This document shows, piece after piece, positions 9,601 to 62,469 of a stretch of DNA of 64,000 nt; the stretch's first letter is position 1, and every line of letters starts with the position of its first letter. The stretch lies in the NCBI GenBank assembly GCA_900539945.1, contig UQDV01000002.1, positions 88,344 through 152,343 on the forward strand, read 5' to 3'. The translations under genes were made by a program, and so were the position numbers. The DNA comes from an uncultured Faecalibacterium sp. GTDB lineage: Bacteria; Bacillota; Clostridia; Oscillospirales; Ruminococcaceae. Below the pieces are notes generated by a model. That model did no database searches. It worked only from the letters and a program-made list of their open reading frames with translations, and was not told where the DNA came from.

Positions 9601-9672
9601 CGCGTTTCATCATTCCGTCTCAAAACTGTCCGCCACCCACAACACTATACTGAGAACAAAGGAGAGAACACT

Positions 9673-10116: not shown

Positions 10117-10141
10117 GACAGACTTTGTGTATAGAGGGAAA

Positions 10142-10177: not shown

Positions 10178-10179
10178 GT

Positions 10180-18465: not shown

Positions 18466-18484
18466 TCTCTGCGAACTGAACAAA

Positions 18485-18682: not shown

Positions 18683-18733
18683 GGTACAGGAGCGCACCGC
18701 TCCGGACCACGAGGAATTGGTCGTGCCGAAAAG

Positions 18734-41863: not shown

Positions 41864-41881
41864 AGTTTTCCTCTCTTATCC

Positions 41882-42073
41882 TCAATCCTGATAGGTTGCG
41901 TTGTAAATGGCCAATACTGCCAGCAGCAGTGCCACGCCCACAAGCATGATGCCCAGCCCTGCCAGCTGTCCGGTCATTTTCCAGCCTGCCACCACCAATG
42001 CAATGGACAGCACAAACAGCACGATCATCAGCACGATGCGCAGGGCAGGATGCGTTTTCCAGAATGTTTTCAT
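41882..42073 (-). CDS. Small two-helix membrane protein
   Basis: 63 residues with hydrophobic segments at about 13-30 and 37-57 and a charged N-terminus. It resembles small membrane proteins (DUF6903-like) found beside carbohydrate ABC transporters; the family name is from memory. It lies 12 nt after the second permease and 18 nt before the phosphorylase, so it is part of the operon. It may assist the permease complex; function unknown. Confidence 0.7.
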   Translation of the reverse strand: MKTFWKTHPALRIVLMIVLFVLSIALVVAGWKMTGQLAGLGIMLVGVALLLAVLAIYNATYQD

Positions 42074-42084
42074 GTTTTGTCACC

Positions 42085-42981
42085 TTATCCTTTCAAGCCG
42101 CCCACCGTCATGCCCTGCGTCAGCTGCTTCTGCACACAGATGTACAAAATCAGAGTAGGCAGCATCACCAGCACAAGACCTGCGTACATGGTGCCGTACT
42201 GCGCAGCACTCTGCTGAGCCTGCATCAGATTCAGCAGACCCACTGGCAGAGTACGGGGTGCGTTGGTGGAACTCATCAGGGTCATGGAGATGATGTACTC
42301 ATTCCAGAAAGACAGGAAGTTGAACAGGATAATGGTGATGATCGACGGCTTCGCCATTGGGAAAATGATACGGGTCATGGTGGAGAAGTAGCTTGCACCG
42401 TCGATGTAGGCTGCTTCTTCAAAGTCGTGGGGCAGGGTGGCAAAATAGCCCGACAGCAGATAGATGGTAAAGGGCAGTGCCGTAGCTGCATACACGACCG
42501 CCAGAAGGAACAGGTTGTTCAGCAAAAAGCCGCTGCCAATATGGTTTTTCAGCCACACATCACCGTCACGCAGCATCAGGAAGATGGGCACCACAATGTA
42601 GTTCACGTTGATGAACAGACCTGCCATAAACAGGGTGTTCAGCAGCTTGCGCCCCTTGAACCGGAAACGGGACAAGCAGTAAGCTGCCGGAAGCGCAATC
42701 ACCAGCAACAGCACCAGAGCCAGCGCTGTGACCAGAACGGAGTTGAGCATATATTCGCCCATCTTGGCTCCATTCCACGCATTGACGAAGTTCTGCCAGT
42801 AGAATCCGGCAGGCAGTGCCCACGGATTGCCGTAGAACTCCGAGTTCTGCTTGATGGATGCCATAAACACCCATGCCACCGGCACAATGATCGTCACAGC
42901 CAGCAGGATCAGCACAAAATAGATAAAAAATTTGTACAGGCTCTCCGCCGAACGGGAGGATTTTTCTTCCGTTTTCTTCAT
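42085..42981 (-). CDS. Carbohydrate ABC transporter permease (MalG/GltC-type)
   Basis: 298 residues with six hydrophobic helices. The cytoplasmic EAAYIDGASYFSTMTRIIFP segment is the EAA motif that docks the ATPase. With the preceding permease and the binding protein it should import lacto-N-biose/galacto-N-biose. No ATPase gene is present in the cassette, so a shared MsmK/UgpC-type ATPase encoded elsewhere is likely. The start is supported by AGGAGG about 9 nt upstream. Confidence 0.93.
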   Translation of the reverse strand: MKKTEEKSSRSAESLYKFFIYFVLILLAVTIIVPVAWVFMASIKQNSEFYGNPWALPAGFYWQNFVNAWNGAKMGEYMLNSVLVTALALVLLLVIALPAAYCLSRFRFKGRKLLNTLFMAGLFINVNYIVVPIFLMLRDGDVWLKNHIGSGFLLNNLFLLAVVYAATALPFTIYLLSGYFATLPHDFEEAAYIDGASYFSTMTRIIFPMAKPSIITIILFNFLSFWNEYIISMTLMSSTNAPRTLPVGLLNLMQAQQSAAQYGTMYAGLVLVMLPTLILYICVQKQLTQGMTVGGLKG

Positions 42982-42992
42982 ATTTTTCCTCC

Positions 42993-43877
42993 TTAAAACT
43001 CCAGCGGTTCACGGCTGGTGGCACGGTTAACACAGGCGGACAAGGCGAACGAGAACAGGAAGATAACCACACCGATTGCCATGCTGTAACCGTACAGACC
43101 TGCATCTTTCTGGCTGTACATATAGTTCAGAGCCACATCCGAGGCACCGTTCGGCCCGCCGCTGGTCATCGCCTTGACGAACAGGAACGCCATATTGATG
43201 GTGGAAATGATAAAGAAGGTCAGGGTGGTACGGATGTTCGTCCAGACCAGCGGAATCGTGATCTGGAAGAACTGGGTCAGACGGCCCGCTCCGTCCAGAT
43301 TGGCACTCTCGTACAAGCTGGCAGGCACCGAGGACATGGAAGCCATATACATCACCATATAGTAGCCCACAGCCTGCCAAACCATTGCAATGATGATGGA
43401 CGGAATGACCAGCTTTTCGCCTTTCCAGAGGATAGGGTCAGTCATATCCCGGAACAGCCCGATGATGCTGTTCAGCATGCCATTCTCCGGCTTATAGATG
43501 GCAGAGAAGATACCGGCGATGACGACCACAGACAGGATGTTCGGGATGTAGAAAATGATGCGGAAGAAATTCTGCCCCTTGATTTTTTCGCGGGTCAGGA
43601 TGGCTGCAAACACCAGCGCAAACGCAAAGGTGATGATGGTAACGACCACCACCAGCAGGATCATGTTCTGCATGGAGCGGATGAACTGGGTGTCCTTCAG
43701 CAGATGCTGAAAATTTTTCAGCCCGACAAAGGTTTCGTTTGGCGAGTAGGCTCCACGCTCATACAGGCTCATGCGGAACACATTAAGGGTTGGCAAAATC
43801 ATAAAAATGAAAAACAGGATGGTGGCCGGTGCCACACAGAGGAACACGAACCGTTTGCGGCTTTTGTCAGATTTCAT
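42993..43877 (-). CDS. Carbohydrate ABC transporter permease (MalF/GltB-type)
   Basis: 294 residues, six predicted helices, with ESANLDGAGRLTQFFQITIP as the EAA-like loop. I placed the start at 43877 (MKSDKSRKRF) after GGAACGG; a longer frame to 44045 runs back through a hairpin and into the binding-protein gene, so it is not used. The hairpin at 43919-43946 lies between the binding-protein gene and this one. Confidence 0.92.
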   Translation of the reverse strand: MKSDKSRKRFVFLCVAPATILFFIFMILPTLNVFRMSLYERGAYSPNETFVGLKNFQHLLKDTQFIRSMQNMILLVVVVTIITFAFALVFAAILTREKIKGQNFFRIIFYIPNILSVVVIAGIFSAIYKPENGMLNSIIGLFRDMTDPILWKGEKLVIPSIIIAMVWQAVGYYMVMYMASMSSVPASLYESANLDGAGRLTQFFQITIPLVWTNIRTTLTFFIISTINMAFLFVKAMTSGGPNGASDVALNYMYSQKDAGLYGYSMAIGVVIFLFSFALSACVNRATSREPLEF

Positions 43878-43918
43878 AGACAAACCGTTCCTTTCTACTG
43901 GAATCCAGAAACCCAAAA

Positions 43919-43946
43919 AGCGGAGGCGGTCAAAACCGCCTCCGCT
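43919..43946 (-). terminator. Intra-operon hairpin between binding-protein and permease genes
   Basis: AGCGGAGGCGGT and ACCGCCTCCGCT form a perfect 12-bp stem with loop CAAA; on the minus strand TTTTTGGG follows. It should act as a partial terminator, leaving more binding-protein than permease mRNA. Confidence 0.65.
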
Positions 43947-43987
43947 GGGCAGGGCCTTGGAAGCTGTTTTCGGATGCAGCTTCGTTT

Positions 43988-45352
43988 TTACTCGATGATG
44001 TTGGCGCGCATCTGGTCGCTGGCGGACTTGATGCCGTCGATCCACTGCTGCTCGGTCATGCTGCCGGACACCAGAGAGTTGACAGGGTCAAAGAACACGG
44101 TGCGGACTTCCACACCGGGGATAGCGGTGAAGGAAGCAAAGTTGCCCATAGCTGCCTTTGCGCCGTTGTCGTAGATGGAGTAGAACATCTTGTTGTCGCC
44201 TTCCAGACTGTCGGCGATGCCCAGCACAGGCTGGATCGCGCCGCTTTCGGCAAACAGCTTGCAGGCTTCGTCGCTGTACAGGTAAGCCACGAACTGCTTG
44301 GCAGCATCCAGATGCTCGGCACCGGCCGGGATCCATGCCTGCTCAAACCAGGTGTAGCTGTAGCCGTCGCCGCCAGCCTGCACAGCCGGCAGAGCGGTCA
44401 TGCCCCACTCAAAGCCATCCGCACGGGGAGCCTCGGCCATCTCGCCCACGATCCAGGTGCCGTTGGGCATGAACAGAGCCTTGTTGTCCAGCACCAGCTG
44501 CTGGTTCTGGGTAAAGTCCTGATCGTTGGCCTGGGCAGGGGTGATGGGGTTGGTGTAGGAGGCCAGCTTAGCCACGATATCAAAGCAGGTCTTTGCCTCG
44601 GGGGTGTCCCAGATGCCCTCGGTGTAGTGGGTGGCCTTGTTGAAGAACTCGGGGCCGCCTGCTGCGTACATCAGAGCATAGAAGAAAGCGTCGAAGTAAC
44701 CGGTGGTGGGGTAGGTGAACAGGTAAGTGCCCTCAGCCTTTGCCTTTTCGCCCAGCTCCCACATCTCGTCCCAGGTCTTGGGCACGTCCCAGCCCTTTTC
44801 CTTCAGGAAGCCGGCGTTGTAGAACAGGCCGCAGGGGCTGTAGAACATGGGGGCCAGGTAGGTCTTGCCATCGCCGTAGGGGTTGGTGAGAGAAGTGTCG
44901 GTAAAGCCGCCGGCGATCTTCTCGCTGACCTTCTTGCTCTCGCCGGGCACGGTCATGCTCAGCACGTCGGTGATGTCAGCGATCAGGTTGCCCTTGATGA
45001 ACTGCTCCGTGAGGGCAGCCTCACGGCCGGTAGCCAGGTGGATCACGTCGGGGTAATCGCCGCCCTGCATGGAAGGTCCGATGACGTCCTCCAGCTTCTT
45101 ATCGGTGGTCAGCTCCACCTTGATGCCGGTCTGAGCGGTAAAGGCCTCGGTGACCTTCTTCCACATCTCTGCACCATAGCCAGTCTCGATGGCAGCAACC
45201 TTGATGATCACGTCCTCAGCTGCAGCAGAAGCAGCGGAAGAAGCGGTGCTGGGGGCAGTGGAGCTGGCAGCACCACCACAGGCAGCCAGGCTCAGTGCAG
45301 CGGCACCCACGCCAGCCACCTTCAGGAAATTGCGACGAGAAATGCGTTTCAT
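43988..45352 (-). CDS. Carbohydrate-binding lipoprotein of the lacto-N-biose importer, Tat-type signal
   Basis: 454-residue solute-binding protein of the SBP_bac_1 family. The N-terminus combines a twin-arginine motif SRRNFLK with lipobox LAAC, so it may be exported folded by the Tat system and then lipid-anchored. A Ser/Ala-rich linker follows. Two lobes are suggested by GGDYPDVIHLATGREAAL and NKALFMPNGTWIVGEMA. First gene of the leftward operon. The ligand is inferred from the GH112 and N-acetylhexosamine kinase genes. Confidence 0.92.
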   Translation of the reverse strand: MKRISRRNFLKVAGVGAAALSLAACGGAASSTAPSTASSAASAAAEDVIIKVAAIETGYGAEMWKKVTEAFTAQTGIKVELTTDKKLEDVIGPSMQGGDYPDVIHLATGREAALTEQFIKGNLIADITDVLSMTVPGESKKVSEKIAGGFTDTSLTNPYGDGKTYLAPMFYSPCGLFYNAGFLKEKGWDVPKTWDEMWELGEKAKAEGTYLFTYPTTGYFDAFFYALMYAAGGPEFFNKATHYTEGIWDTPEAKTCFDIVAKLASYTNPITPAQANDQDFTQNQQLVLDNKALFMPNGTWIVGEMAEAPRADGFEWGMTALPAVQAGGDGYSYTWFEQAWIPAGAEHLDAAKQFVAYLYSDEACKLFAESGAIQPVLGIADSLEGDNKMFYSIYDNGAKAAMGNFASFTAIPGVEVRTVFFDPVNSLVSGSMTEQQWIDGIKSASDQMRANIIE

Positions 45353-45383
45353 AGTGTATCCTCCATCATTTGATCTCGTTCAA

Positions 45384-45424
45384 ACACAGCCGGGGCAAAC
45401 AGGTTCTGCCCGGGAGGGCTGTGT
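45384..45424 (-). other. Leader stem-loop upstream of the binding-protein gene
   Basis: ACACAGCC (45384-45391) pairs with GGCTGTGT (45417-45424), with an inner GGGCA/TGCCC stem. It lies in the 5' leader, about 30 nt before the start codon; role unknown. Confidence 0.4.
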
Positions 45425-45438
45425 GTTTTTCTGTCTCC

Positions 45439-45467
45439 AATATAAGTTTTTTCGCCTTCTCGAACAA
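45439..45467 (-). promoter_or_regulatory. Predicted promoter of the lacto-N-biose operon
   Basis: Minus strand TTGTTC, 17-nt spacer, TATATT. Its weak -35 suggests activation by the divergent AraC-type regulator. Confidence 0.55.
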
Positions 45468-45636
45468 GGGGTTTGTTGTTTCTTTTTTTAGAAATCTTGC
45501 TCTCTGGAATTTTCTTTCAGCAAAGTCGCTAAATTCAAGAGGTTGCTTTGGGCAAATTGCCTTTATCTGTAACCTTTTTGACATATTCCAAAGTTTTTCC
45601 GGAACAAAAAATAGAGGACCCACTAAAAAACAGGGC

Positions 45637-45665
45637 TTGCTTTTTTCTCGCTTTCCCTCTATAAT
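45637..45665 (+). promoter_or_regulatory. Predicted promoter of the araC-type regulator and kinase genes
   Basis: TTGCTT, 17-nt spacer, perfect TATAAT, leaving a leader of about 95 nt. Between the two divergent promoters (45468-45636) I see only a small palindrome, GGCAAATTGCC at 45551-45561, as a possible operator. Confidence 0.6.
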
Positions 45666-45767
45666 GGAAAAAAGCCTACGAGACATCGTATCATTTTGAC
45701 ATCTCTTTTTTAATTATCTTGCTTTTATTTTTATGTTTTTTGCATCACTCAAAGGAGCCGTTGTGTT

Positions 45768-46634
45768 ATGAGCACCCAACGCTTTGATATCCAGCACGCC
45801 CCTGCCCCCCGGGAGTCCTTCCGGCTGCTGTACATCAGCAAAAGCCGGTTTGGCGGTGACTGGAACAGCACCACCCACACCCATTCCTGCACGGAGCTGT
45901 TCTATTGCCTGAGCGGAGAAGGGCAGTTCTACCTTGCCGGGCAGCTGTTTCCGGTAAAGCCCGACGACATGGTCATCGTGAACCCCCAGGTGGAGCACAC
46001 GGAATTGAGTCTGAACGCTTCACCGCTTGAATATATCGTTCTGGGTGTGGCTGGCATTGAGATCTTATTCGGCAAGGCTGATTCTTCTTATGCTATCTTC
46101 AACTGCCGTGAAAACCGGGAACGGATGGTCACTCTGCTGCATATGCTGCTTGCCGAAGCCGACCGCAGTCTGGATGGCTGCGAAACCGTCTGTCAGGACT
46201 TGCTGGAGGTGCTGCTGATCTGGCTGGTACGCTGCACAACGCTCTCTTTGCAGGTGGAAGAAACGCCACGGTCTGACAGCCGGGAGTGTGTAGAGATCAA
46301 GCGATATCTGGACAGCAACTTCCGGGAGGACATCTCGCTTGACCGTCTGGCAGAGATCGCACACATCAACAAATATTATCTGGCCCATACCTTTCAAAAG
46401 GAGTACGGCATCTCTCCCATCACCTATCTGAATTGCCGCCGCATTGAGGAAAGCAAATATATGCTGGGCAATACAGGTTACAGCTTGGCTCAGATCAGTG
46501 AACTGATGGGCTTTTCGTCCCCCAGCTATTTTTCCCAGTGCTTCCGCAAAGCGGAGGGGCTGACTCCCAACGAATACCGCCGTCAGGTACGGCAGGGACA
46601 ACGCCCTGCCCCGGCAAAACGGCATGAAAGATAA
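45768..46634 (+). CDS. AraC family transcriptional regulator
   Basis: 288 residues. The N-terminal cupin-like sensor domain (about 20-110) includes HTHSCTELFYCLSGEG and VNPQVEH, the usual sugar-sensing fold. The C-terminal double helix-turn-helix (about 180-280) has DISLDRLAEIAHINKYYLAHTF in the first helix pair and GFSSPSYFSQCFRK in the second. Divergent from the lacto-N-biose import/phosphorylase operon and 18 nt before the kinase gene, so it is the likely activator of both, responding to the disaccharide or a product. Confidence 0.92.
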   Translation: MSTQRFDIQHAPAPRESFRLLYISKSRFGGDWNSTTHTHSCTELFYCLSGEGQFYLAGQLFPVKPDDMVIVNPQVEHTELSLNASPLEYIVLGVAGIEILFGKADSSYAIFNCRENRERMVTLLHMLLAEADRSLDGCETVCQDLLEVLLIWLVRCTTLSLQVEETPRSDSRECVEIKRYLDSNFREDISLDRLAEIAHINKYYLAHTFQKEYGISPITYLNCRRIEESKYMLGNTGYSLAQISELMGFSSPSYFSQCFRKAEGLTPNEYRRQVRQGQRPAPAKRHER

Positions 46635-46652
46635 AGAAACGAGGATCACATC

Positions 46653-47765
46653 ATGAAACCTGTAACAGAACCCATTCTCCTGGCAGCAGCAAACGCCTTT
46701 GATTTTGGCGGACCGGTGGTCTGCGACGGCCGCCACTACGGCGAGGGCCATATCAACGACACCTATCTGGTCTGGCGGGCCGACCACTCCAAGCGGTTCA
46801 TCCTGCAGCGTATCAACACCGACACCTTCACGGACCCGGTGGGCCTGATGGAGAACGTCTGCGGCGTTACCCGGCACCTGAGCCGCAAGATCCTGGCAGA
46901 GGGCGGCGACCCCATGCGTGAGACCCTGAACGTGGTCCCCACCCTGTCCGGCAGCACCTGCTACCTGGACGCTGAGGGCGGTGCCTGGCGTGCCTACGAC
47001 TTTGTGGAGGGCACTGTCTGCCTGCAGCAGGTGGGCAGCGAGGGAGATTTCCGCACCGTAGCCGAGACTCTGGGCAAGTTCCAGAACCAGCTGGCAGACT
47101 ACCCTGCCTCCACCCTCCACGAGACCATTGCCCGGTTCCACGACACCGCCAACCGCTACGCCAATTTTGAAAAGGCCCTGGCTGCCGACAGCATGGGCCG
47201 GGCCGCCAAGATCGCTGAGGAGATCGCCTTTGTCCGTGCCCGGGAGGCCGACTGCCATGTGCTGCTGGACCAGCTGGCTGCCGGAGAGATCCCCCTGCGT
47301 GTCACCCACAACGACACCAAGATCAACAACGTCCTCATTGACGAGGCCACCGGCAAGGGTCTGTGCGTCATCGACCTGGACACTGTAATGCCGGGCCTGT
47401 CCGCCTATGATTTTGGCGACTCCATCCGCACCGGTGCCAACGACTGTGCCGAGGACGAACCGGACCAGAGCAAGGTCCACTTTGACCTGCACCTGTATGA
47501 GGTGTTCGCCCAGGGCTATCTGTCCACCGCCGGGGCTTCCATGAGCCTGGCCGAGAAAAAGAGCCTGGCCTGGGGTGCACGGCTCATGACCCTGGAGTGC
47601 GGCACCCGGTTCCTCACCGACTACCTGGAGGGGGACCACTACTTCCACACCGCCCGTCCGAACCACAACCTCGACCGTGCCCGCACCCAGTTCACGCTGG
47701 TACGACAGATGGAAGATGTATTCGATCAGATGACTGCAATCGTTTGCCCGGAAACCGACCTCTGA
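46653..47765 (+). CDS. nahK: N-acetylhexosamine 1-kinase
   Basis: Phosphorylates GlcNAc or GalNAc at C1, the second step after phosphorolysis of lacto-N-biose/galacto-N-biose. The 370-residue aminoglycoside-phosphotransferase-fold kinase has YGEGHINDTYLV at the N-terminus, the catalytic THNDTKINNVLID loop and VIDLDTVMPG metal-binding motif. The bifidobacterial equivalent is lnpB. The uridylyltransferase and epimerase partners (lnpC, lnpD) are not in this window. GAGGATC precedes the start. Confidence 0.93.
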   Translation: MKPVTEPILLAAANAFDFGGPVVCDGRHYGEGHINDTYLVWRADHSKRFILQRINTDTFTDPVGLMENVCGVTRHLSRKILAEGGDPMRETLNVVPTLSGSTCYLDAEGGAWRAYDFVEGTVCLQQVGSEGDFRTVAETLGKFQNQLADYPASTLHETIARFHDTANRYANFEKALAADSMGRAAKIAEEIAFVRAREADCHVLLDQLAAGEIPLRVTHNDTKINNVLIDEATGKGLCVIDLDTVMPGLSAYDFGDSIRTGANDCAEDEPDQSKVHFDLHLYEVFAQGYLSTAGASMSLAEKKSLAWGARLMTLECGTRFLTDYLEGDHYFHTARPNHNLDRARTQFTLVRQMEDVFDQMTAIVCPETDL

Positions 47766-48141: not shown

Positions 48142-48816
48142 TTATCTTACACTCTGCCCGAAGGTCTTGACCACCGGAATGCCCCGGACGTATTCCACGG
48201 CCTCGTTGGACATGGCCTCCAAGGCGTTGCCGTACTGCCGCATTTTTTCAACCATGCGCTTGCCGGTCATGGTTGCCATAATGAGGAAAGCCAGCACCAC
48301 CGGCGCAAGGCTCAACAGCCCCAACCTCCAGTCGAACGCCAACAGCAGCACCAGCAGCCCCACCGGGGTGGCGATGGCGTTGTACTGGTCGGGCAGCTGG
48401 TGGGCAAGATAGGTCTCGGCGGCTCCGGTGCTTTCGTGGATGATCTTGCGCAGCTTACCGCTGCCGAAGGTCTCGGCAAAGCCCAGCGGAAGCACTGCCA
48501 GATGCTCCGACACCGCCAGCCGCAGATTCGTCGCCACCCGGAACGCCGACAGATGGGAGCACATCAGCGCCGCAATGTAAATAAGGTAAGACAGCACCGC
48601 GAACAGCACTGCCATCCAGCCGTAATGAGGGATGTTCACCGCCTGTGCATAGTCCGGTGCGGCGTTCAGCACATCCCGCAGGATCTTCCAGATGTACACA
48701 AAAGGCACCAGCGCCACCAGCGCACTGGCCGCAGACAACGCCCACGAAGCGTAGGTGAAATATCGGTAGTTCCCGGCGTAACCCATCAGCCGGGAAAGAT
48801 CGGACTGTTTTTTCAC
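48142..48816 (-). pseudogene. ABC exporter transmembrane domain, truncated before the ATPase domain
   Basis: 224 residues covering the membrane domain of a type IV ABC exporter: helices at about 25-60, 70-100 and 130-180, then the coupling-helix region ending EAVEYVRGIPVVKTFG. A normal half-exporter continues for about 350 residues with Walker motifs; here the frame stops two codons later at the cassette-edge hairpin. The start is a GTG at 48816 with AGGAGG 7 nt upstream. It is probably the last gene of the operon from 54009 and cannot work alone; a functional partner elsewhere is possible but unlikely. Confidence 0.75.
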
Positions 48817-48918
48817 GAAAGAACCTCCTTCAAAAAAACGCATCATGTCAAAATCTCTGTCAACCTGCGAGATACGCAGAGTGCTTTTTTCTCATAAACC
48901 ACCCTGCGCTCCTCCTAT

Positions 48919-49554
48919 TTATTTTCCTTTCTTTTTGTACCCGCAGTCGCAGTAGGGCCCGCCGGAGGCAAGGGTATACTGCCGCACAAAGTTCGTTACG
49001 CCGCCCGCTTCGCTCATGGTGTAGTCCAGATGGCACATAGCGGGGGTCAGGTCATAAAGCCCCAGCTCCTGCATCAGCGTGCAGATGCCGCATTTCGTAA
49101 AGCGCCCCTCGTAACCGCTGCCATCCGGGTATTCGTAAAAGTCCATGTTCCACGAGTAGGGGTTGCGGTCGGCGGCTTTCAGAGCAGCGGTGGCTTTCAT
49201 GGCAGCAATGTCCTTTGCGGTAAACTTGCTTTTTCCGCTCTTGCGGCAGAACCACTTCATCAACGGCGTCATCTGAGCGTTCTCATAGTAGTCGGTCAGG
49301 CTTTCCACATCGGGACGGTGCGGCATGGAGAGGACAAACGCCCCCAGCATGGCGCATCCAATGATGTTCATGCTGAACCGATCACCTTTTTCAAATTTGG
49401 GCAGCTTTGCGATGATCTCTTTGTATTTCGGCTTGGCGGTTTTGGTGATCTGCTTTGCGGTAACTGCATCATAGCCCAGCACCGCCGTCAGCTGCGTCTG
49501 AAACGATCTGGCAAACACCGCCCACATGGCCATGGGCATCCCCGTCCAACGCAT
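48919..49554 (-). CDS. L-2-amino-thiazoline-4-carboxylic acid hydrolase-like protein (first copy)
   Basis: 211 residues resembling the ATC-hydrolase family, named for the Pseudomonas enzyme that opens aminothiazoline carboxylate on the way to cysteine. The family-like C-terminal half has FTKCGICTLMQELG, PAMCHLDYTMSEAGG and a closing GGPYCDCGY, rich in cysteine. Many family members have unknown substrates. It starts 1 nt from the acyl-hydrolase stop and is in the same operon as a second, diverged copy (51830-52531). Confidence 0.72.
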   Translation of the reverse strand: MRWTGMPMAMWAVFARSFQTQLTAVLGYDAVTAKQITKTAKPKYKEIIAKLPKFEKGDRFSMNIIGCAMLGAFVLSMPHRPDVESLTDYYENAQMTPLMKWFCRKSGKSKFTAKDIAAMKATAALKAADRNPYSWNMDFYEYPDGSGYEGRFTKCGICTLMQELGLYDLTPAMCHLDYTMSEAGGVTNFVRQYTLASGGPYCDCGYKKKGK

Positions 49555-49555
49555 C

Positions 49556-50488
49556 TCACTTTGCTCCTTTCCATTTCGCTAACACCCGGCACATCCGTTT
49601 CTCGATGTCTATCCGGGTCTGGCGGCATTCCTTCGGATATTTTTTTGCTGCCTGAAACGCGAACTTCACAAATAGACCGGAGCCAACCGGCAGCATGATC
49701 TTCAGCATCCCCTCCGGGAAAACGAAGTGGGTGCCGTGGGCATAAACCATCGTCTCGATCTCACATTCATGCGGTTTTTCGGCAAGGCGCTTTTCCATCC
49801 GGCGGATATACTTTGCGGTGTCCCACAGCGCATCGTCCTCCGCGCCGATCAGCAGCAGCTTTCCCCGGATGTTTTCAACGGGAATGTATTCTTCCGGCTC
49901 GATCGGATGAGCTGTCTCGGAATCGTCAAACAGCTTGCGGGAGTTTACCATATCGCCGGCGCGTTTGCTCTCGGCGGCGATGCAATGCCAATAGTCGGGA
50001 TGCTGATAGCAAAACGGCATATAGGGCAGCGGCTTGCCCCGGTAGGAGAACAGCGATTCACCCTCGACCGGCCACTCCTTGCAGCCGTCCCTTTTGCCCT
50101 GCAGAAAGCCCTGCCACACAAAGTCGCTGGGTGTCATGGCAATGGTCAGGGTGATATCCGGGAACATGGCAGCCGCTGTCAGCGCAAGCGTCCCGGTGGT
50201 CGATGCACCGGCAATGCCGATCTTTCTGTTACCGTTAGCTTTCAGCCATGAAATTGCCGTCTCCACACGCTCAAGCGGGTAATTATGATGTCCGTAATCT
50301 TTTTTCGCGGGCGACATTGTGAGCACGTTTACACCGCACCCGCAAAGCCATTTCACTGCCGAGCGCGCAAGCCGATCCTCCGGATCATCCCCGATCATCG
50401 TGATGACTGCACAGTCTGAACCGCCGGCACACGCCCAATACGCACCGTAAAAGCCATTGCGTTCCACATCAAAGTGCAGATGTTTCAT
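49556..50488 (-). CDS. Alpha/beta hydrolase of the acyl-CoA thioesterase/BAAT C-terminal type
   Basis: 310-residue serine-type hydrolase. The nucleophile elbow is GASTTG, followed by TPSDFVWQGFLQG and YRGKPLPYMPF, segments like those in bile-acid-CoA:amino-acid N-acyltransferase/acyl-CoA thioesterase C-terminal domains. The catalytic Asp and His are probably in GAEDDALWD and HGTHFVFPEG. Start at 50488 after GGAGGGAG, overlapping the methyltransferase stop by ATGA. The acyl substrate is unknown. Confidence 0.82.
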   Translation of the reverse strand: MKHLHFDVERNGFYGAYWACAGGSDCAVITMIGDDPEDRLARSAVKWLCGCGVNVLTMSPAKKDYGHHNYPLERVETAISWLKANGNRKIGIAGASTTGTLALTAAAMFPDITLTIAMTPSDFVWQGFLQGKRDGCKEWPVEGESLFSYRGKPLPYMPFCYQHPDYWHCIAAESKRAGDMVNSRKLFDDSETAHPIEPEEYIPVENIRGKLLLIGAEDDALWDTAKYIRRMEKRLAEKPHECEIETMVYAHGTHFVFPEGMLKIMLPVGSGLFVKFAFQAAKKYPKECRQTRIDIEKRMCRVLAKWKGAK

Positions 50489-51327
50489 GCTCTCCCTCCA
50501 AATTTGATCTTTACAATCTGCATTTTCATCCCGTTGTCCCCAATCCTTGCAAGGAATCGGAAAAAGCCGCTGACGGAAGGGTCTTTCAGGTCGCTGTAAC
50601 CCAGCATATAGCCCCGGCTGGACACCTGCAGGCGGCTGTCCCATGGGGAAAGCTCACTTTTGGCATCCGAAACCGCGAAATATGCCCCCACATCCTTGAT
50701 CTTTGCAGTCTTGAGCCATGTTTTTGCGATCATCTTCACCGCCGTGCGGTTGGCGGCATCAAAGACCAGCACACCGCCGGGGAATGCGTCCGCCATCCCC
50801 CGCACCAGTTCCCGGACCTGCTGGGTCGGGAAGTAATAGAACACCCCGGAGGCAAAGAACACCGCCCCGCCGGAGGCATCGATCTTGTCAAACCATGCGG
50901 GGTCTTTCAGGTCGCAGGGGATGTTTTGCTCTCGCTCCCCGGCGGGCAGCAGCTGCTGCCGCAAGGCAATCACATCCGGGAAGTCCAGATTGTAGATCTT
51001 GCAGCTGCCGTTGTCGCAGGCTTTGCCGGTGTTGTCCAACCCGCAGCCCAGATTGACCACCGCTGCGCTGGGGTGCGTTTTCAGGTATGCCCGCACCTCA
51101 AAGGCAAGGTCATTCTGCCGCATGGCCACCTCCAGCGCACCGAACCGCTGCATCAGACTGCGGGAGCTTTTCTCCGCCTCTGAAAAATCGTAGTCGATCT
51201 GGTCGAGCAGACGAACCGCTGTTTCATCCCGGTAAAGGTTCGGGTACAGCTCCGTACACAGCTTCCGGGAATACAGCGGGAGGATCAGCGTCTCCTGCAC
51301 GGTGTTTTTCTCGATTTTATATTTCAT
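50485..51327 (-). CDS. Class I SAM-dependent O-methyltransferase (LCM family)
   Basis: 280-residue methyltransferase of the leucine-carboxyl-methyltransferase-like family. The SAM loop is VVNLGCGLDNTG, preceded by the family-typical long N-terminal helices (TAVRLLDQIDYDFSEAEK). Members methylate carboxyl groups of small molecules as well as proteins. Start at 51327 after GAGGGAGGGG; the frame upstream of it overlaps the membrane protein gene and is not used. ATGA-coupled to the hydrolase gene. Confidence 0.85.
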   Translation of the reverse strand: MKYKIEKNTVQETLILPLYSRKLCTELYPNLYRDETAVRLLDQIDYDFSEAEKSSRSLMQRFGALEVAMRQNDLAFEVRAYLKTHPSAAVVNLGCGLDNTGKACDNGSCKIYNLDFPDVIALRQQLLPAGEREQNIPCDLKDPAWFDKIDASGGAVFFASGVFYYFPTQQVRELVRGMADAFPGGVLVFDAANRTAVKMIAKTWLKTAKIKDVGAYFAVSDAKSELSPWDSRLQVSSRGYMLGYSDLKDPSVSGFFRFLARIGDNGMKMQIVKIKFGGRA

Positions 51328-51338
51328 GGGCCCCTCCC

Positions 51339-51830
51339 TCAGTGAAGAAAAATAGTCATAATTGCCGCCAGAACCATCGCTATGACTGCCATGCCCACCG
51401 TGCCGAATAGCCACTTTTTCTGCTTGTCTTTTGCAGTAATGTAGGGCTTCAGATCCTCTGTTCCGGGGATCGTCCATGCGTTCGTGTGCCCCACCCAGTA
51501 ACCATCGATCAAAAAGCGGTCAATAAGATTCATAATGGACAAGATGACGAGCAGCTGCCAGAAGCCCACCGCAAAGCTGCGCGCACCGTTTATCCCATAG
51601 ACACAGACCAGCACATAGCTGATATAGCCGGGAATGCAAACGGCTTTGAAAATCAGAGAATTGCGCTTGATTTTCTCGTGTGTTGTAAGTCCCAGCTTCA
51701 CGCACCGCTGCTGCACCGCCGGGCTGTAAAGATGCACCATCCCAACAGCCCCTTTGCGGATGCCCACGGCACAGACGAGAACCAACAGGATTCCCAGCCC
51801 AAGACCTTCCAGAATCACCTGTAAAAGCAT
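51339..51830 (-). CDS. Polytopic membrane protein of unknown function
   Basis: 163 residues with four hydrophobic segments at about 3-24, 62-82, 88-108 and 142-162. Between helices there are a basic stretch and WTIPGTEDLKPYITAKDKQK. I do not recognise the family. It is coupled to the upstream ATC-hydrolase-like gene (shared base at 51830) and 11 nt from the methyltransferase gene, so it belongs to the operon and might host or export its product. Confidence 0.7.
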   Translation of the reverse strand: MLLQVILEGLGLGILLVLVCAVGIRKGAVGMVHLYSPAVQQRCVKLGLTTHEKIKRNSLIFKAVCIPGYISYVLVCVYGINGARSFAVGFWQLLVILSIMNLIDRFLIDGYWVGHTNAWTIPGTEDLKPYITAKDKQKKWLFGTVGMAVIAMVLAAIMTIFLH

Positions 51831-52531
51831 TACTTATTCCTCCTGTATCCGTTTTCATCCCGATATTCGGGATGTTCCTTTACGTATGGATCCTTATCGC
51901 CGCAGATGGTATAGTCGCATCGGCAGCCGTCCACACAGGTGGTCGTCCGCACGAGCTTGGCTTGGAGCAGTTCCATGGACGCATAGTCCACATTGCACAG
52001 GGCGGGCATAATGTCCGTAAATCCGAACCGCTTGGCAAATTCCGCCGCCGGGCACGCCGTAAATTCATAATAAATAGGCTTGTCGGTTTCATAAGGCGCA
52101 ACCGACATCTCGTAATCGTGCCATTTGTCGCAGCCGCTTTTCGCACGAACAAACGCCTTGTACATCAGCTTTTTCCAGAATGGCTTGTTGATGTCAACGA
52201 ATCGCAGCTTCCGGAAGGACGGCAGAATCAGATTTTCTTCTATCTCTTCCATTTCGCGGAATGTGACCACATCCCGGCACACATCGTAAAAGCACATGAT
52301 GGCGATGCAGTCGTAGGTGCCGCCTACGCCGTTGTGAAAATTCTTTTTACCGCCGAGGTCGGTGCGCCACTTGGAAAGAAGCTCTGCGTATCTCAGCTGC
52401 ACCTGCTCCCAGACCGCCTCGCGCTCCACCTCCGGATAGTGCAGAGTGATTTTCGCCAGAATTTCCTTTTTGCAGGGTTTGGAATATAGCACATGGCAGC
52501 TACGGTCAATTTGTAATTCGCTGTCCTTCAT
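51830..52531 (-). CDS. L-2-amino-thiazoline-4-carboxylic acid hydrolase-like protein (second copy)
   Basis: 233 residues, same family as 48919-49554 but strongly diverged. Recognisable parts are YYEFTACPAAEFAKRFG, PALCNVDYASMELLQAKLV and the cysteine-rich RTTTCVDGCRCDYTICGD. The N-terminal half is helical with YDCIAIMCFYDVCRD. It overlaps the MBL-fold gene by ATGA. Two diverged family members in one operon suggest different steps or a heteromer rather than a recent duplication. Confidence 0.75.
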   Translation of the reverse strand: MKDSELQIDRSCHVLYSKPCKKEILAKITLHYPEVEREAVWEQVQLRYAELLSKWRTDLGGKKNFHNGVGGTYDCIAIMCFYDVCRDVVTFREMEEIEENLILPSFRKLRFVDINKPFWKKLMYKAFVRAKSGCDKWHDYEMSVAPYETDKPIYYEFTACPAAEFAKRFGFTDIMPALCNVDYASMELLQAKLVRTTTCVDGCRCDYTICGDKDPYVKEHPEYRDENGYRRNK

Positions 52532-53391
52532 CTTCCCACGCCTTTCAGAAAACCGCTCTTTGCATTTTCTTCGGTGTCGTCCGATTCGTCGTAGGCATCA
52601 TAGGATGCCGATGGGTCGTGGGCTCTTTTTTTGAAAGGCGAGCACAGCTCATTTTTGTGCGCAAAGGCAAACTCCATGTTGTCCGTCCAGCCGGTGTGGC
52701 CGGTAATAAACAGCGGATGCAGTCCGCGTTTTTTCAGCTTTTTCTCCAGCAGTGTCAGAGACTTCACTGCCAGCTTGTTATCCTCTGCCAGCGCAGAAAT
52801 AAAGCTGTAGCCGCCGTCCGCGCCAAACCACAGCGTGTCGCCGGTAAAAAGGTACTTATCGTCAATGAGGTAGACCATATGTCCCCATGTATGACCGGGA
52901 ACGAGAAAACACTCGATTTTGATGCCGTCAATGTCAAGTACCTGCCCATCGTGCAGCAGTACCTTTTCGTTGTTGATCGTGACCTGCGGCAATTTATAGA
53001 GATGATAGATGACTTTTCGCCGCACCTCGCCGGTGAGATACCGGTTCTCGATCTCGCCGATGTACAGCTTTGCATTCTGAAACAGCCCCGGACTGTCCGC
53101 CTCCACCGCACCCACATGGTCGGTGTCCTGATGGGTGATAAGGATATGGCGTATCGACTTCGGATCAATCCCAAGCCAGCCCATTTTTCCGGCAAGGCGG
53201 TCGTAGTTATATCCCGCATCGACCATAATGGTCGTATCGCCTTTGCGGTAGAAGAAGATATTCGCCACCCATTCGCGCACGCAGGCAACATTCTCGTCGA
53301 TGCAGCCAGTGTTCAAAGGCTTGAAGATCTCCTTGCCCCGGTACATCCAGCTCATTGCTTTTCTTTGAAATTCCGTTGTCTTTTTCGACAT
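52528..53391 (-). CDS. Metallo-beta-lactamase-fold hydrolase
   Basis: 287 residues. The metal motif reads THQDTDHVG, so the second histidine of the usual HxHxDH is aspartate; this HQDxDH form is a known subgroup. Further ligands are in VPGHTWGHM, FTGDTLWFG and the late FITGHTGW. The C-terminal 40 residues are acidic and low-complexity. The substrate is unknown. ATGA-coupled to the second ATC-hydrolase-like gene and 9 nt from the methyltransferase gene. Confidence 0.87.
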   Translation of the reverse strand: MSKKTTEFQRKAMSWMYRGKEIFKPLNTGCIDENVACVREWVANIFFYRKGDTTIMVDAGYNYDRLAGKMGWLGIDPKSIRHILITHQDTDHVGAVEADSPGLFQNAKLYIGEIENRYLTGEVRRKVIYHLYKLPQVTINNEKVLLHDGQVLDIDGIKIECFLVPGHTWGHMVYLIDDKYLFTGDTLWFGADGGYSFISALAEDNKLAVKSLTLLEKKLKKRGLHPLFITGHTGWTDNMEFAFAHKNELCSPFKKRAHDPSASYDAYDESDDTEENAKSGFLKGVGR

Positions 53392-53400
53392 GATCGCACC

Positions 53401-54009
53401 TCATTTCTGTGCTGTGATGCACAGCCAGCCCTTTTTGTTTTTGTGGCTCTGAATCTTACAGAATCCTGCCTGCGCCAGATATGCTTTCAGGGCAGTATCC
53501 GTGTAGATGGTCATCCCATTGATGATCTGTGTCCATTTGTCGTCTTTTGCGGTTTCGCCGTTTGCTTCATTGCAGATGAAAAAGACCCCGCCGGGCTTCA
53601 GCACCCGATAGACCTCTCTGAAATTCTGCACAAGTTCCGGCCAGAAATAGACCGTTTCAAAGGCGGTCACTACCTCAAACTGCTCCGGTCCAAACGGCAG
53701 TTCTGCCACACTTGCCTGCTGCACGGTACACCGTCCTGCCGCAATGGCACCCGCATTGACCTTTCGCGCTTTTTCTACGCTGACAGCCGAATAGTCGATG
53801 CCCTGCACCTTGCCTTTGGGGCACAGCTTCAACAGCGTTTTGATGTTCGCCCCGCCGCCGCAGCCGCAATCCAGCACCATGGCATCCGGGGCAGGCTGCA
53901 AAAAACGCAGCCCCCACGCTGCCATTGCGCTGTGGCCAACGTTCATCATGGCAACCATGATTTTCCCGCCAAGACCTACGGGCTTGCGGGTGTTTTCAAA
54001 AAAGGACAT
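53401..54009 (-). CDS. Class I SAM-dependent methyltransferase
   Basis: 202 residues with the UbiE/Methyltransf_11 pattern: VLDCGCGGGANIKTLL as the SAM loop, GIDYSAVSVEKAR as the acidic loop, and REVYRVLKPGGVFFI. A small-molecule C- or O-methyltransferase is likely. First gene of the leftward eight-gene operon; AGAGAGTGG is a modest ribosome site. Upstream lie a palindromic operator (54106-54125) and a promoter. Confidence 0.87.
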   Translation of the reverse strand: MSFFENTRKPVGLGGKIMVAMMNVGHSAMAAWGLRFLQPAPDAMVLDCGCGGGANIKTLLKLCPKGKVQGIDYSAVSVEKARKVNAGAIAAGRCTVQQASVAELPFGPEQFEVVTAFETVYFWPELVQNFREVYRVLKPGGVFFICNEANGETAKDDKWTQIINGMTIYTDTALKAYLAQAGFCKIQSHKNKKGWLCITAQK

Positions 54010-55334: not shown

Positions 55335-55347
55335 CTTTGCACGAAAT

Positions 55348-55363
55348 GTTAGGCCGAGCTAAC
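55348..55363. promoter_or_regulatory. Operator D: GTTAG-N6-CTAAC
   Basis: Exact arms with spacer GCCGAG, just beyond the leader terminator and 37 bp before the start codon. Confidence 0.55.
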
Positions 55364-55399
55364 CGTGTATTTTCAAGCCAGAGACAGAGGTGTGTTACA

Positions 55400-56236
55400 A
55401 TGAGATTGAAAAAAGTATTTGCAGGTGTCCTTGCGGCCGCCATGCTGGTGTGCGCTGTGGCAGTCCCGGCCTTCGCTGCGGAAGAGGTGGAGCAGGAGAA
55501 CGGCCTGTCCTCCAGCTATGTCCAGATGAACATCCCTTACGCCGATTTCTACAAAGCTGCCGGTGTGGACAATGCATCTGAGATCGATGCTGTGACCAGC
55601 GCCACCAAAAACAAGACCCGTGCAGGCAAGCTTGCCGCCGGTTCCTACCATGTCAACGCCGACGGCACCGACATCACCGGCGTTTCCTTCCCGGTCAAGG
55701 TGCTGACCCCGTGGGCGCTGAAGAATGCAAAGCAGGTCACCGATGCCGACAGCTACGACATTACCGTTACCCTGAAGGGCAAGGAATCCACCACCACCTA
55801 CACTGGCGCAGATGCCTTGTTTGAGAACGAGAGCTACGCTTACTACAAGCTCAGCGAGACCCCTGCCTGCTACATCACCGCATGGTATAACCTGCTGAGC
55901 GGCAAGTGGGAGTTTGGCAAGGTCCACGCCACCGAGACCACCGTAGAGGGCACCACTGTGGAGCTGAATACCAACGGTCACCACACCACCTACGAGATGA
56001 AGATCTCCGGTTTTGATCTGGACTACAAGGCCAACAAGGTCTACGGCGTAGTGCTGACCACCGCCGATGGCAGCGAGTACGGCCTGCATCATGTGACCAA
56101 CATCTGGCATGGTACCAAGCTGGGCTTCAATGCCGATGATCCTTACTTTGCATCCATCATCGGTAAGACTGTTACTCAGATCACCTACTACACCGCCGAC
56201 GGTGTGTATGTCCTGCCGGTCAGCGTGGCACTGTGA
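55400..56236 (+). CDS. Secreted protein resembling penicillin-binding Tp47 domain C
   Basis: 278 residues with a Sec signal peptide ending AVPAFA, so exported without a lipid anchor. The mature part opens NIPYADFYKAAG and holds DAVTSATKNKT, then repeated beta segments (SYDITVTLKGKEST; ISGFDLDYKANKVYGV). It recalls proteins annotated as Tp47 domain C-containing; the role is unknown and penicillin binding is not implied. The ATG at 55400 follows AGAGGTG; in-frame starts upstream overlap operator D. The DAVTSAT motif also resembles that of FMN-binding domains. Two operators and an attenuator precede it, which ties it to the neighbouring metal transporters. Confidence 0.75.
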   Translation: MRLKKVFAGVLAAAMLVCAVAVPAFAAEEVEQENGLSSSYVQMNIPYADFYKAAGVDNASEIDAVTSATKNKTRAGKLAAGSYHVNADGTDITGVSFPVKVLTPWALKNAKQVTDADSYDITVTLKGKESTTTYTGADALFENESYAYYKLSETPACYITAWYNLLSGKWEFGKVHATETTVEGTTVELNTNGHHTTYEMKISGFDLDYKANKVYGVVLTTADGSEYGLHHVTNIWHGTKLGFNADDPYFASIIGKTVTQITYYTADGVYVLPVSVAL

Positions 56237-56688: not shown

Positions 56689-58779
56689 TTACAGGGAATG
56701 CTTCTGCTCCAACAGATCTGTCATGCTGTGCAGACTGATGCCAAGGGTGGAAAGGTTATGCAGCATGGCGCTGGTAGCCGGGGGCAGGATGCCCAGTGCG
56801 CCCAGAAGGATGAGCGCTGAGTTGAAGCTGAGCACAAAGCGGTAATTGCTGCCCACCCGCTTTTGCAGGGCGTTGGCAATGGCTTTTAAGGTCACCAGCT
56901 CTTCCAGACTATCCGCACGAATGGTCACATCGGCGATCTCCCGGGCGATGGCAGCGCCGGAATGGATGGCAATCCCGATATCTGCCGCCGACAGGGCAGG
57001 CGAATCATTGATGCCGTCGCCGATCATCACCACCGTATGTCCCTCGGCCCTGGCATTGCTGACAAAGGCGGCTTTATCCTCCGGCAGCACCTCCGCAAAG
57101 CAGCGGTCTACCCCCACCTGCGCCGCAATGGCACGGGCGGTGCGGTCGCTGTCGCCGGTCATCATAACGGTCTGGGTGATGCCCAGTTTCCGGAGCTTAT
57201 GCAGCACCTGTGCCGCCTCCGGGCGCAGGGGGTCTGCGATGCAGATGACCCCCGCCAGTACCCCGGACGCTGCCAGATACAGGTGGGAATACTGCGGGTC
57301 CAGCGCATCGAACTTTGCCTGTTCCTCTGCCGGGATGGTGCAGCCCTCGTCCTCAAAAATGAAGTGGGCGCTGCCAATGACCACCCGCGTGCCGCCTACC
57401 CGGCTGGCAATGCCGTGCGCCACGATGTATTCCACCTCGGAGTGCATCTCTTCGTGAGAGATCCCCTGCTCCTTGGCGGCACGGACCACAGCGTTTGCCA
57501 TGGAATGGGGGAAATGTTCTTCCAGACAGGCGGCAAGCTGCAATACTTCCTGCTCCCCGCAGCCGGAGAAGGGCACTACCTGCACCACCTGCGGAGTGGC
57601 GCGGGTGAGGGTACCGGTCTTATCAAACACGATGGTATCCGCCTGCGCCAGCGCTTCCAGATACTTGCCGCCCTTTACGGTGATGTGGTATTCCCCGCAC
57701 TCCCGCATGGCAGAGAGCACCGCAAGCGGCATGGAGAGTTTCAATGCGCAGGAAAAGTCCACCATCAGGATGGAGATGGCGCGGGTAACGTTGCGGGTAA
57801 AGGCATAGGTGGCCGCCGTACCGGCAAGGCACCACGGCACCAAGCGGTCAGCCAGCTGCAAGGCCCGGTTCTCGGTGCCGGACTTGAGCTTTTCCGATTC
57901 CTCGATCATGGCCACGATCTTATCGTAGCGGTTGGCACCACCCTCTGCCTTGGCCACAAGGACGCATTCGCCCTCTTCCACCACTGTTCCGGCGTAGACG
58001 GTGGCACCGGTGGTCTTGCGTACCGGCATAGATTCTCCGGTGAGGGCAGCTTGGTTCACCATGGCCTCCCCTTCCAGCACCATGCCGTCCAACGGGATCA
58101 TGTTGCCGGAGCGCACCACCACTTCGTCCCCGGCGTGAACGCGGGTCAACGGCACCAGCACCTCGCCCTGCGGGGTGCGCACCCAGACCTTATCCACATT
58201 CAGCGCCATGCTGCGGGCAAGGTCGTCCAAGCTCTTTTTCCGCGTCCACTCCTCCAGCAGGCTGCCCACCGTCAGCAGGAACATCACCGAGCCTGCCGTG
58301 CTGTAATCGCCCCGCAGGAGGGAGGCGGTGATGCTGAGCGCATCCAGCACCTCTACTTCCAGCTTGCGGTGCAGCAGACAGCGGACGCCCTTCCAGATAA
58401 AGGCGATGGAGCGCCACACCGTGTATGCTGCCGCGATGGGCGCAGGCAGAAACACTTTGCGGAACGCCCTGCCTGCCACAAGGCTGACCATCTTTTCCTG
58501 ATATTCCTGATTGATCTTCCGGCTGTCGTGGGAGGTGACCAGCACCTCTAACTCTTCGTTGTCAAAGCGGTAGGAGGCCAGCAGGGCGGCGGCATCCTTC
58601 CGGCTGCCCCGGTAGGTCAGCACCACATCTCCGGTGCGCTCGTAGACGGTGGCTTTTTGAATGTTGTCCTGCCCGTTCAGGTAGGCTTCCAGCACATCTG
58701 CCCGGTGCAGGGTCATGCGCACGGCGCAGACGTGCACCCGCATCCGTCCCTTTCCTTCATGTAAGATCGTACATTTCAT
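56689..58779 (-). CDS. Heavy-metal P-type ATPase with an SCA transmembrane motif
   Basis: 696-residue P1B-like pump. The N-terminal 80 residues resemble an HMA_2-type domain without a CxxC metal site. TGES (247-250) is the actuator motif, DKTGTLT (386-392) holds the phosphorylated Asp386, and GDGINDSPALS closes the P domain. The transmembrane metal motif normally CPC/SPC/TPC is FSCALKLS (342-349), so specificity is not obvious; Mn, Zn or Fe export is suggested by the operators nearby. The start at 58779 follows GGGGTAAG. It is preceded by a small-protein gene and an intervening terminator. Confidence 0.9.
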   Translation of the reverse strand: MKCTILHEGKGRMRVHVCAVRMTLHRADVLEAYLNGQDNIQKATVYERTGDVVLTYRGSRKDAAALLASYRFDNEELEVLVTSHDSRKINQEYQEKMVSLVAGRAFRKVFLPAPIAAAYTVWRSIAFIWKGVRCLLHRKLEVEVLDALSITASLLRGDYSTAGSVMFLLTVGSLLEEWTRKKSLDDLARSMALNVDKVWVRTPQGEVLVPLTRVHAGDEVVVRSGNMIPLDGMVLEGEAMVNQAALTGESMPVRKTTGATVYAGTVVEEGECVLVAKAEGGANRYDKIVAMIEESEKLKSGTENRALQLADRLVPWCLAGTAATYAFTRNVTRAISILMVDFSCALKLSMPLAVLSAMRECGEYHITVKGGKYLEALAQADTIVFDKTGTLTRATPQVVQVVPFSGCGEQEVLQLAACLEEHFPHSMANAVVRAAKEQGISHEEMHSEVEYIVAHGIASRVGGTRVVIGSAHFIFEDEGCTIPAEEQAKFDALDPQYSHLYLAASGVLAGVICIADPLRPEAAQVLHKLRKLGITQTVMMTGDSDRTARAIAAQVGVDRCFAEVLPEDKAAFVSNARAEGHTVVMIGDGINDSPALSAADIGIAIHSGAAIAREIADVTIRADSLEELVTLKAIANALQKRVGSNYRFVLSFNSALILLGALGILPPATSAMLHNLSTLGISLHSMTDLLEQKHSL

Positions 58780-58807
58780 TGCTTTTCTTACCCCTCTGCG
58801 TAAAAAA

Positions 58808-58827
58808 GAGCCGCCCAAGGGCGGCTC
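58808..58827 (-). terminator. Terminator between the small-protein gene and the P-type ATPase gene
   Basis: GAGCCGCCC and GGGCGGCTC form a 9-bp stem with a 2-nt loop, followed on the minus strand by TTTTTTA. It looks strong, so ATPase expression depends on read-through. Confidence 0.7.
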
Positions 58828-58839: not shown

Positions 58840-59127
58840 TCACTGTGCAGTCTGCTCTGCGGGCTGCTCTTCAGCCGTATCCTCAATGACCTCCTGTGCA
58901 GCCTCGGCGGCGCGGCTCTCGTTGATGGCCTTTGCATCGGCAAGGATGTCTCCTGCCTCTTCCTGCACCTTGTTCACGGTCTGCATGGTGCAGTCCTTCA
59001 TCCGCAGCACCGCAGCAGTGGTCTGGGTGTAGACCTTTTTGGCGTCCTTGCTGGACAGCACCTTGAAGCCGGCAGAGCCGAACACTACACCGCCCAAAAA
59101 CAGTGCGAGCTTTTTTGTATCAAACAT
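58840..59127 (-). CDS. Small protein next to the P-type ATPase (DUF6110-like)
   Basis: 95 residues. An N-terminal glycine-rich hydrophobic helix (KLALFLGGVVFGSAGFKVL) is followed by a helical region (KKVYTQTTAAVLRMKDCTM) and an acidic Glu/Ala-rich tail. It resembles DUF6110 proteins, which I recall as neighbours of this kind of ATPase. A membrane-anchored accessory or metal-buffer role is conceivable but unproven. GAGGAATA precedes the ATG; the promoter lies at 59201-59228. Confidence 0.75.
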   Translation of the reverse strand: MFDTKKLALFLGGVVFGSAGFKVLSSKDAKKVYTQTTAAVLRMKDCTMQTVNKVQEEAGDILADAKAINESRAAEAAQEVIEDTAEEQPAEQTAQ

Positions 59128-62311: not shown

Positions 62312-62469
62312 TTTTCCCAATCTTTCTCCGCCCCAGACGGTCGCAGTTTGAGTTCATTTCCGTACCGCCGATTTTAGATTTGATGCCGTTGATCCGCACA
62401 TCGGTCCGGTCGATGGTATACACGATTTTGGGAATGATGTCTTTTCGTCCTTTTAACAAATTCGATCTT

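Follow-up and report, generated by a model that had tools for sequence, protein, structure and literature searches.

What does a gut commensal do with an operon that combines two methyltransferases, several hydrolases and a piece of a transporter, and why does this operon stand behind a metal-type operator? The question is raised by a 64,000-nucleotide stretch of DNA from an uncultured Faecalibacterium sp. (assembly GCA_900539945.1, contig UQDV01000002.1), here called the window, in which eight minus-strand genes lie at 48142-54009. Little is known of the ways in which dominant gut anaerobes, Faecalibacterium among them, deal with a shortage of iron. An earlier, sequence-only reading saw in the eight genes a small-molecule pathway under metal control. 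We find that the operator belongs to a group of iron boxes, that the genes behind it form no fixed set, and that they may serve the use of foreign metal ligands.

The operator before the operon, GTTAG-N6-CTAAC, is the core of the box bound by EqbA, a DtxR-family repressor that responds to Fe2+ and controls the equibactin locus of Streptococcus equi. According to the accessible text of the equibactin paper, the EqbA operator includes this motif, and binding depends on the palindrome and is raised by Fe2+ and Zn2+, less by Mn2+ (PMC3672683). Relaxed boxes (GTTAR-N6-YTAAC) occur four times in the window, against 0.02 expected from 100 first-order Markov simulations (maximum 1). Relatives of the locus were recruited with the protein of the LCM-type methyltransferase gene as query (best 80 of 105 candidates); 74 of the 80 loci have more than 1.5 kb of upstream sequence and were searched up to 6.5 kb upstream. 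The relaxed box is present in 68 of the 74, in its exact form in 67; the 74 share descent, and the 68 are not independent events. Six control patterns (reversed, swapped, and spacers of 4, 5, 7 and 8) were found in 0 of 74. The central six bases are variable, with 74 different centres among 137 exact sites. On this sequence comparison, membership of the operon box in the EqbA-type group is well supported. The metal-type operator of the earlier reading can thus be tied to iron, by the EqbA core, by its presence in the relatives and by iron genes that adjoin the box elsewhere.

These iron genes came to light in whole genomes. Eight genomes hold 12, 8, 10, 2, 11, 13, 20 and 17 exact boxes, and 2, 2, 1, 1, 2, 2, 3 and 4 copies of the reversed pattern, respectively. 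The regulon was surveyed in 47 regions around boxes (39 + 8), which are part of all boxes in these genomes; gene calls in relatives came from a home-made caller of open reading frames (ORFs), with errors in places, and genes without a profile-search name were read by eye from protein starts. Beside boxes we found FeoA and FeoB (L129, L130), FeoA (L104), Nramp (L120), ZIP (L117, L132), flavodoxin (L100, L170) and, 26 bp from the box, pyruvate formate-lyase (L098, L115); in L174 an enolase-like gene lies between the box and pyruvate formate-lyase. Other neighbours are DUF3793 (L109), a FUR-family gene (L121), a PF14196 protein (L107), ApbA/PanE-like reductases (L110, L113), an HMA domain (L113), an S component of an energy-coupling factor (ECF) transporter together with AraC (L124) and a DtxR-family gene (L058). 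Reading by eye near boxes added more methyltransferases and four-helix proteins. Judged by gene content, this is the profile of an iron-starvation response.

The box before pyruvate formate-lyase and flavodoxin genes suggests, as an observation in its own right, an iron-sparing switch of central metabolism in Faecalibacterium. The operon might accordingly be part of iron-sparing or stress metabolism and remodel a compound of the cell, such as a quinone, lipid or cofactor, without any metal ligand being involved. The identical box before those metabolic genes, smallest versions that hold only methyltransferases, and several membrane proteins all fit this idea. The loci repeatedly contain ABC (ATP-binding cassette) and ECF transporters of the equibactin/yersiniabactin kind, which speaks against it, and we hold it to be distinctly unlikely.

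The box follows particular protein subfamilies. Relatives of the LCM-type enzyme occur in 24 of 197 genomes of the order, and about 1.5 kb on either side was inspected at 30 of 34 matched places. Relatives at 29% identity or more have a box in 15 of 22 cases (one relaxed), more distant ones in 0 of 8; the box therefore accompanies these subfamilies but not the superfamily at large. The four-helix family is present in 20 of 148 genomes of the family. In 23 regions from 18 of these 20 carriers a box was found in 17; of the remaining two carriers, G001 has its four-helix locus without a box and both loci of G007 have one. The 23 regions contain AraC genes (7), PF14196 proteins (6), ECF S components (5) and LCM genes (5), as well as class I methyltransferases (12), exporter-type ABC genes (11) and alpha/beta hydrolases (7), the latter three being large families whose counts have no background control and, to that extent, weaken the case. 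One further region, L239 (genome G156), packs six four-helix proteins, two ECF S components, ABC genes and several methyltransferases into 19.5 kb, along with an ICMT/PEMT-like protein, an ApbA-like reductase and an HMA domain; no box lies in the stretch examined.

Which repressor acts on the operon, and in which direction, we infer from EqbA: a DtxR-family protein loaded with Fe2+ would keep the operon off, and iron scarcity would turn it on. A DtxR-family gene is present in 8 of 8 genomes examined, yet also in 13 of 14 control genomes. TetR genes stand directly before the box in L030, L033, L035, L038 and L042 (TetR_N is assigned by Pfam in L033 and L042), so that a TetR-family regulator answering to an organic ligand might bind the box, with iron as an indirect signal only. 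This is highly improbable, since the box also precedes feoAB, Nramp, flavodoxin and pyruvate formate-lyase genes, since the DtxR-family protein EqbA binds the S. equi promoter palindrome with this core, and since the window operon holds no TetR gene.

Concerning the operon itself, ORFs and Pfam searches confirm the eight leftward genes and families named by the sequence-only reading; seven are complete, without internal stops, and ATGA couplings are read in the sequence between the MBL and ATCa genes and between the LCM and BAAT genes. In 16 comparisons spanning the seven intact genes the ratio of non-synonymous to synonymous substitution rates (dN/dS) was 0.067-0.167. In agreement with that reading, neither ORFs nor the Pfam search revealed a non-ribosomal peptide synthetase (NRPS) or other assembly-line gene among the proteins of the operon. 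A sigma-70-like promoter upstream of the operator is weak evidence, because the scanned region holds 7 such sites and shuffled sequence 4.9 (sd 1.9).

That the eight genes make up one fixed pathway does not hold. The families do co-occur elsewhere, as the earlier reading had expected: at least four of the seven families other than LCM are found at 60% identity or more in 9 of the 80 relatives. At the same threshold the class I methyltransferase was matched in 38 of the 80 loci, ATCa and ATCb in 15 each, the MBL and four-helix proteins in 10 each, the BAAT-type hydrolase in 7 and the ABC protein in 5. The smallest versions, however, consist of the box and one to three methyltransferases: box and LCM in L039 and L040, box, two class I enzymes and LCM in Coriobacteriia. 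Larger versions add hydrolases, PF14196 and four-helix proteins, ABC pairs and, in some relatives, ECF transporters. The ZIP gene belongs to 13 of the 80 relatives, and several Faecalibacterium loci combine ZIP, class I methyltransferase and LCM genes, joined by an ATC gene in L006 and by part of one in L002, L007 and L008; the window ZIP protein is 98-100% identical to those of L002, L006 and L008. In L043 a predicted 534-residue ORF (9236-10840) ends in LCM, preceded by an additional N-terminal part at the position of a hydrolase gene in relatives; it is possibly a natural fusion.

The closest relative of the LCM protein, with 95% identity, is that of Faecalibacterium sp. I4-3-84; together with the ZIP matches, this makes a Faecalibacterium the most likely host. 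All 24 Coriobacteriia rows fall into a single clade of the LCM tree, beside Faecalibacterium and Gemmiger inside Bacillota (100/99), and a Sphaerochaeta metagenome-assembled genome groups with Hominifimenecus (89/82, moderate), where a mis-binned contig is possible. The simple reading of this tree is that the gene set moved between phyla by transfer. To judge from gene content and tree together, the set is modular and mobile.

What the proteins do is less plain. Both ATC hydrolase-like proteins exceed the PF14196 cut-off of 28.1 bits (ATCa 47.7, ATCb 75.9); they share 17% identity and are strongly diverged paralogues. In ATCb the residues C155, C174, D177, R191 and C202 are invariant, and its predicted model has an H-NOX/V4R-like fold. 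ATC hydrolase chemistry is the opening of a thiazoline ring, and the proposal that the operon acts on a sulfur/nitrogen heterocycle had its whole footing in this family name. The model of one PF14196 protein is of H-NOX/V4R kind, and the proposal gains no support here. H-NOX heme sensors have a conserved proximal histidine, and no invariant histidine was found across 28 aligned PF14196 members. This bears on the idea that the operon handles tetrapyrroles, with PF14196 proteins binding heme or another tetrapyrrole and carboxyl methyltransferases and esterases acting on its propionates for the sake of iron. The predicted fold of ATCb would suit it, and TolI of the tolyporphin small-molecule cluster is given this hydrolase family's name in the available text (PMC8401325). 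A fold by itself shows no ligand, though, the alignment has no invariant histidine to serve as heme ligand, and a heme-opening enzyme is absent among the families identified; the idea is quite improbable. The hydrolase name also appears as an enrichment term of a module in a co-expression study of F. prausnitzii, as far as its accessible text goes (PMC9674144).

The 163-residue four-helix protein matched no Pfam or NCBIfam entry at E 0.01 and has two invariant aspartates, D104 and D109, in 28 aligned members. The BAAT-type hydrolase carries GASTT, GAEDD and AHGTH, which we take to be its catalytic triad.

The eighth gene, called an exporter fragment by the sequence-only reading, is a remnant. 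Over residues 11-233 it matches residues 1-223 of a 589-residue relative at 97% identity, and then it stops. The edge near 48150 is spanned in none of 31 Faecalibacterium genomes (the genus of L001); segment 47820-48360 is matched in 16 of the 31, with the two sides of the edge mapping to different places. Intact versions with full ABC pairs, which the earlier reading had proposed to look for, exist in L001 and L042 (589 + 575 residues). For the one subunit tested, from L042, YbtQ is the top single half-transporter chain among the matches listed (60 of 289), with 288.7 bits against 252.9 for Sav1866; YbtP, IrtA and IrtB are listed too, and two-domain proteins such as P-glycoprotein outscore YbtQ in total, over two matched stretches. 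Since the intact subunit scores best with a siderophore importer among the half-transporters listed, the label "exporter" for the window gene is doubtful.

If the pairs import, what is the ligand? NRPS condensation domains were found in 3 of 17 carrier genomes examined, and IucA/IucC synthetases for NRPS-independent siderophores (NIS) in 0 of the 17. In most of these carriers the ligand would therefore not be a home-made NRPS or NIS siderophore. The main rival turns the same figures around: methyltransferases and hydrolases would tailor a common metabolite into a metallophore free of NRPS and NIS, secreted via the ABC pair and brought back via ECF. Besides the missing synthetases in 14 of 17 carriers, it can call on the iron box, the exporter fold of the ABC pair, and the ApbA/PanE-like reductases and HMA domains that adjoin boxes or occur in related loci. 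No scaffold-building enzyme was recognised, however, hydrolases prevail among the named families, and the smallest versions are methyltransferases alone, which makes such a metallophore unlikely.

We tentatively favour, at somewhat less than an even chance, a system for iron starvation in which an organic metal complex is taken up and its ligand then disarmed by methylation and hydrolysis. The gene products would act on an external ligand that enters via YbtPQ/IrtAB-like ABC pairs and ECF transporters, as suggested by the company of such transporters with the box in relatives. Among its donor groups, the LCM enzyme would cap carboxylates and the class I enzyme phenolate, thiol or amine; the scaffold would be cut by the MBL, alpha/beta and PF14196 proteins, so that the ligand releases its metal and is disposed of. 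Disarming is our hypothesis, in keeping with the methyltransferase core, the LCM family and the abundance of hydrolases. As the ABC gene of the window is a remnant, either uptake here would depend on some other transporter or the locus has half decayed. The wider proposal, that a mobile toolkit of gut Bacillota and of Coriobacteriia that acquired it frees iron by disarming other organisms' ligands inside the cell, is rather unlikely as it stands.

Several observations weigh against import and disarming, beyond the shared descent and missing background noted above. In 29 of 78 counted loci none of the other seven families reaches 60% identity; the remaining 2 of the 80 gave no match at this level. 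No window family beyond the class I methyltransferase and LCM occurs in 21 of 24 Coriobacteriia loci, and import therefore need not be part of the system; the exceptions are L010, with an ABC pair nearby, and L011 and L027, with a P-type ATPase and a BAAT-like gene. Six of the 74 relatives lack the box, namely L001, L019 (1177 masked bases in the box region), L047 (only 1.9 kb upstream), L052, L054 and L076, and L001 is the closest in the LCM tree. In the Collinsella genome G004 the box occurs twice and the reversed control once. Boxes also stand where no iron role explains them, beside enolase (L118), GNAT (L119), a permease (L112) and an integrase region (L101), and some have no called gene nearby (L103). 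A box was found at 2 of 20 DtxR-family loci examined (L137, relaxed, and L140), L058 being a third case, and the TetR genes before the box point the same way. Finally, EqbKL are proposed as possible exporters in the accessible part of the equibactin paper (PMC3672683).

Table 1. Features of the operon and its surroundings in the window
Feature	Position	Strand	Basis or remark
Class I S-adenosylmethionine (SAM) methyltransferase, 202 aa	54009-53401	-	PF08241 4.2e-21
MBL-fold hydrolase, 287 aa, motif HQDTDH	53391-52528	-	PF00753 8.2e-18
ATC_hydrolase-like protein a (ATCa), 233 aa	52531-51830	-	PF14196 3.8e-12
Four-helix membrane protein, 163 aa	51830-51339	-	no Pfam/NCBIfam family
LCM-type methyltransferase, 280 aa, start corrected	51327-50485	-	PF04072 2.6e-9
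BAAT_C-type alpha/beta hydrolase, 310 aa, start corrected	50488-49556	-	PF08840 3.6e-15
ATC_hydrolase-like protein b (ATCb), 211 aa	49554-48919	-	PF14196 7.5e-21
Remnant (234 aa) of exporter-fold ABC half-transporter	48846-48142	-	PF00664 5.6e-13
Operator GTTAG-N6-CTAAC before operon	54123-54108	-	core of EqbA box
Promoter-like TTGACA-17-TATTAT, 11/12 match to sigma-70-like	54197-54169	-	upstream of operator; weak
ZIP metal transporter, own box	55038-54256	-	Pfam; within gene run of several relatives
Relaxed operator GTTAR-N6-YTAAC before ZIP gene	55070-55055	-	pattern scan
Operator GTTAG-N6-CTAAC at start of ORF 55337-56236	55348-55363	+	pattern scan
Relaxed operator upstream of DUF6110 and heavy-metal P-type ATPase	59258-59243	-	pattern scan
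DUF6110 gene	58840-59127		under box at 59243
Heavy-metal P-type ATPase gene	56689-58818		downstream of DUF6110 box

The plus-strand ORF 55337-56236, which begins at an iron box, looks signal-peptide-like by eye and has no Pfam family; its relative in L169 (5155-7688) has a Tp47-domain protein as neighbour, likewise beside a box. Elsewhere in the window, a cobalamin riboswitch (18477-18692, 108.7 bits) heads a long plus-strand gene run (18829-39045) that includes a CobB/CobQ-type gene at 36875-38377. The region 39704-47765, with lacto-N-biose phosphorylase, a sugar-type solute-binding protein, an AraC regulator and an APH-type kinase, is likely a locus for the use of host glycans. A hybrid histidine kinase with two SBP_bac_3 solute-binding stretches and a receiver lies at 59465-62320 and is followed by a second hybrid kinase at 62470-63996.

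Since the box is shared with a tested repressor, sequence alone allows an iron regulon to be drawn up across gut Bacillota. It points to methyltransferases, hydrolases and membrane proteins, a set not described before and spread horizontally, as members of this regulon. Should import and disarming prove true, xenosiderophores would be used by a route other than reduction or ester cleavage, and the toolkit would include a new family of four-helix membrane proteins as well as PF14196 proteins of H-NOX/V4R-like fold. Commensals whose enzymes disarm siderophores, if that is what they do, would be chemical competitors of siderophore-making Enterobacteria, a point of interest for iron therapy and for gut inflammation.

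How does the gene set compare with known systems? The sequence-only reading knew of none with this composition, and we likewise found none described in open-licence papers on PF14196, Faecalibacterium metallophores and iron, equibactin, DtxR boxes, gut xenosiderophores, ECF, Trep_Strep and siderophore degradation. With PF14196 as a family both window proteins agree in passing its cut-off and differ in their strong divergence and the H-NOX/V4R kind of predicted fold. The tolyporphin cluster, as its accessible description has it, is a tetrapyrrole pathway with hem genes, none of which was recognised in the window operon. The siderophore importers YbtPQ and IrtAB may resemble the system, to judge from the L042 ABC subunit, closest to YbtQ among the half-transporters listed, whereas no receptor or reductase was recognised here and the ABC copy of the window is a remnant. 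The equibactin locus eqbA-N of S. equi ICESe2, as described in the accessible text, has NRPS genes, unlike the window operon, and is without PF14196, LCM, MBL and four-helix families (PMC3672683). It shares with the system presented here a GTTAG-N6-CTAAC box for DtxR-family control (presumed for the window operon), a YbtPQ-like ABC pair, a separate uptake transporter, an alpha/beta hydrolase and horizontal movement.

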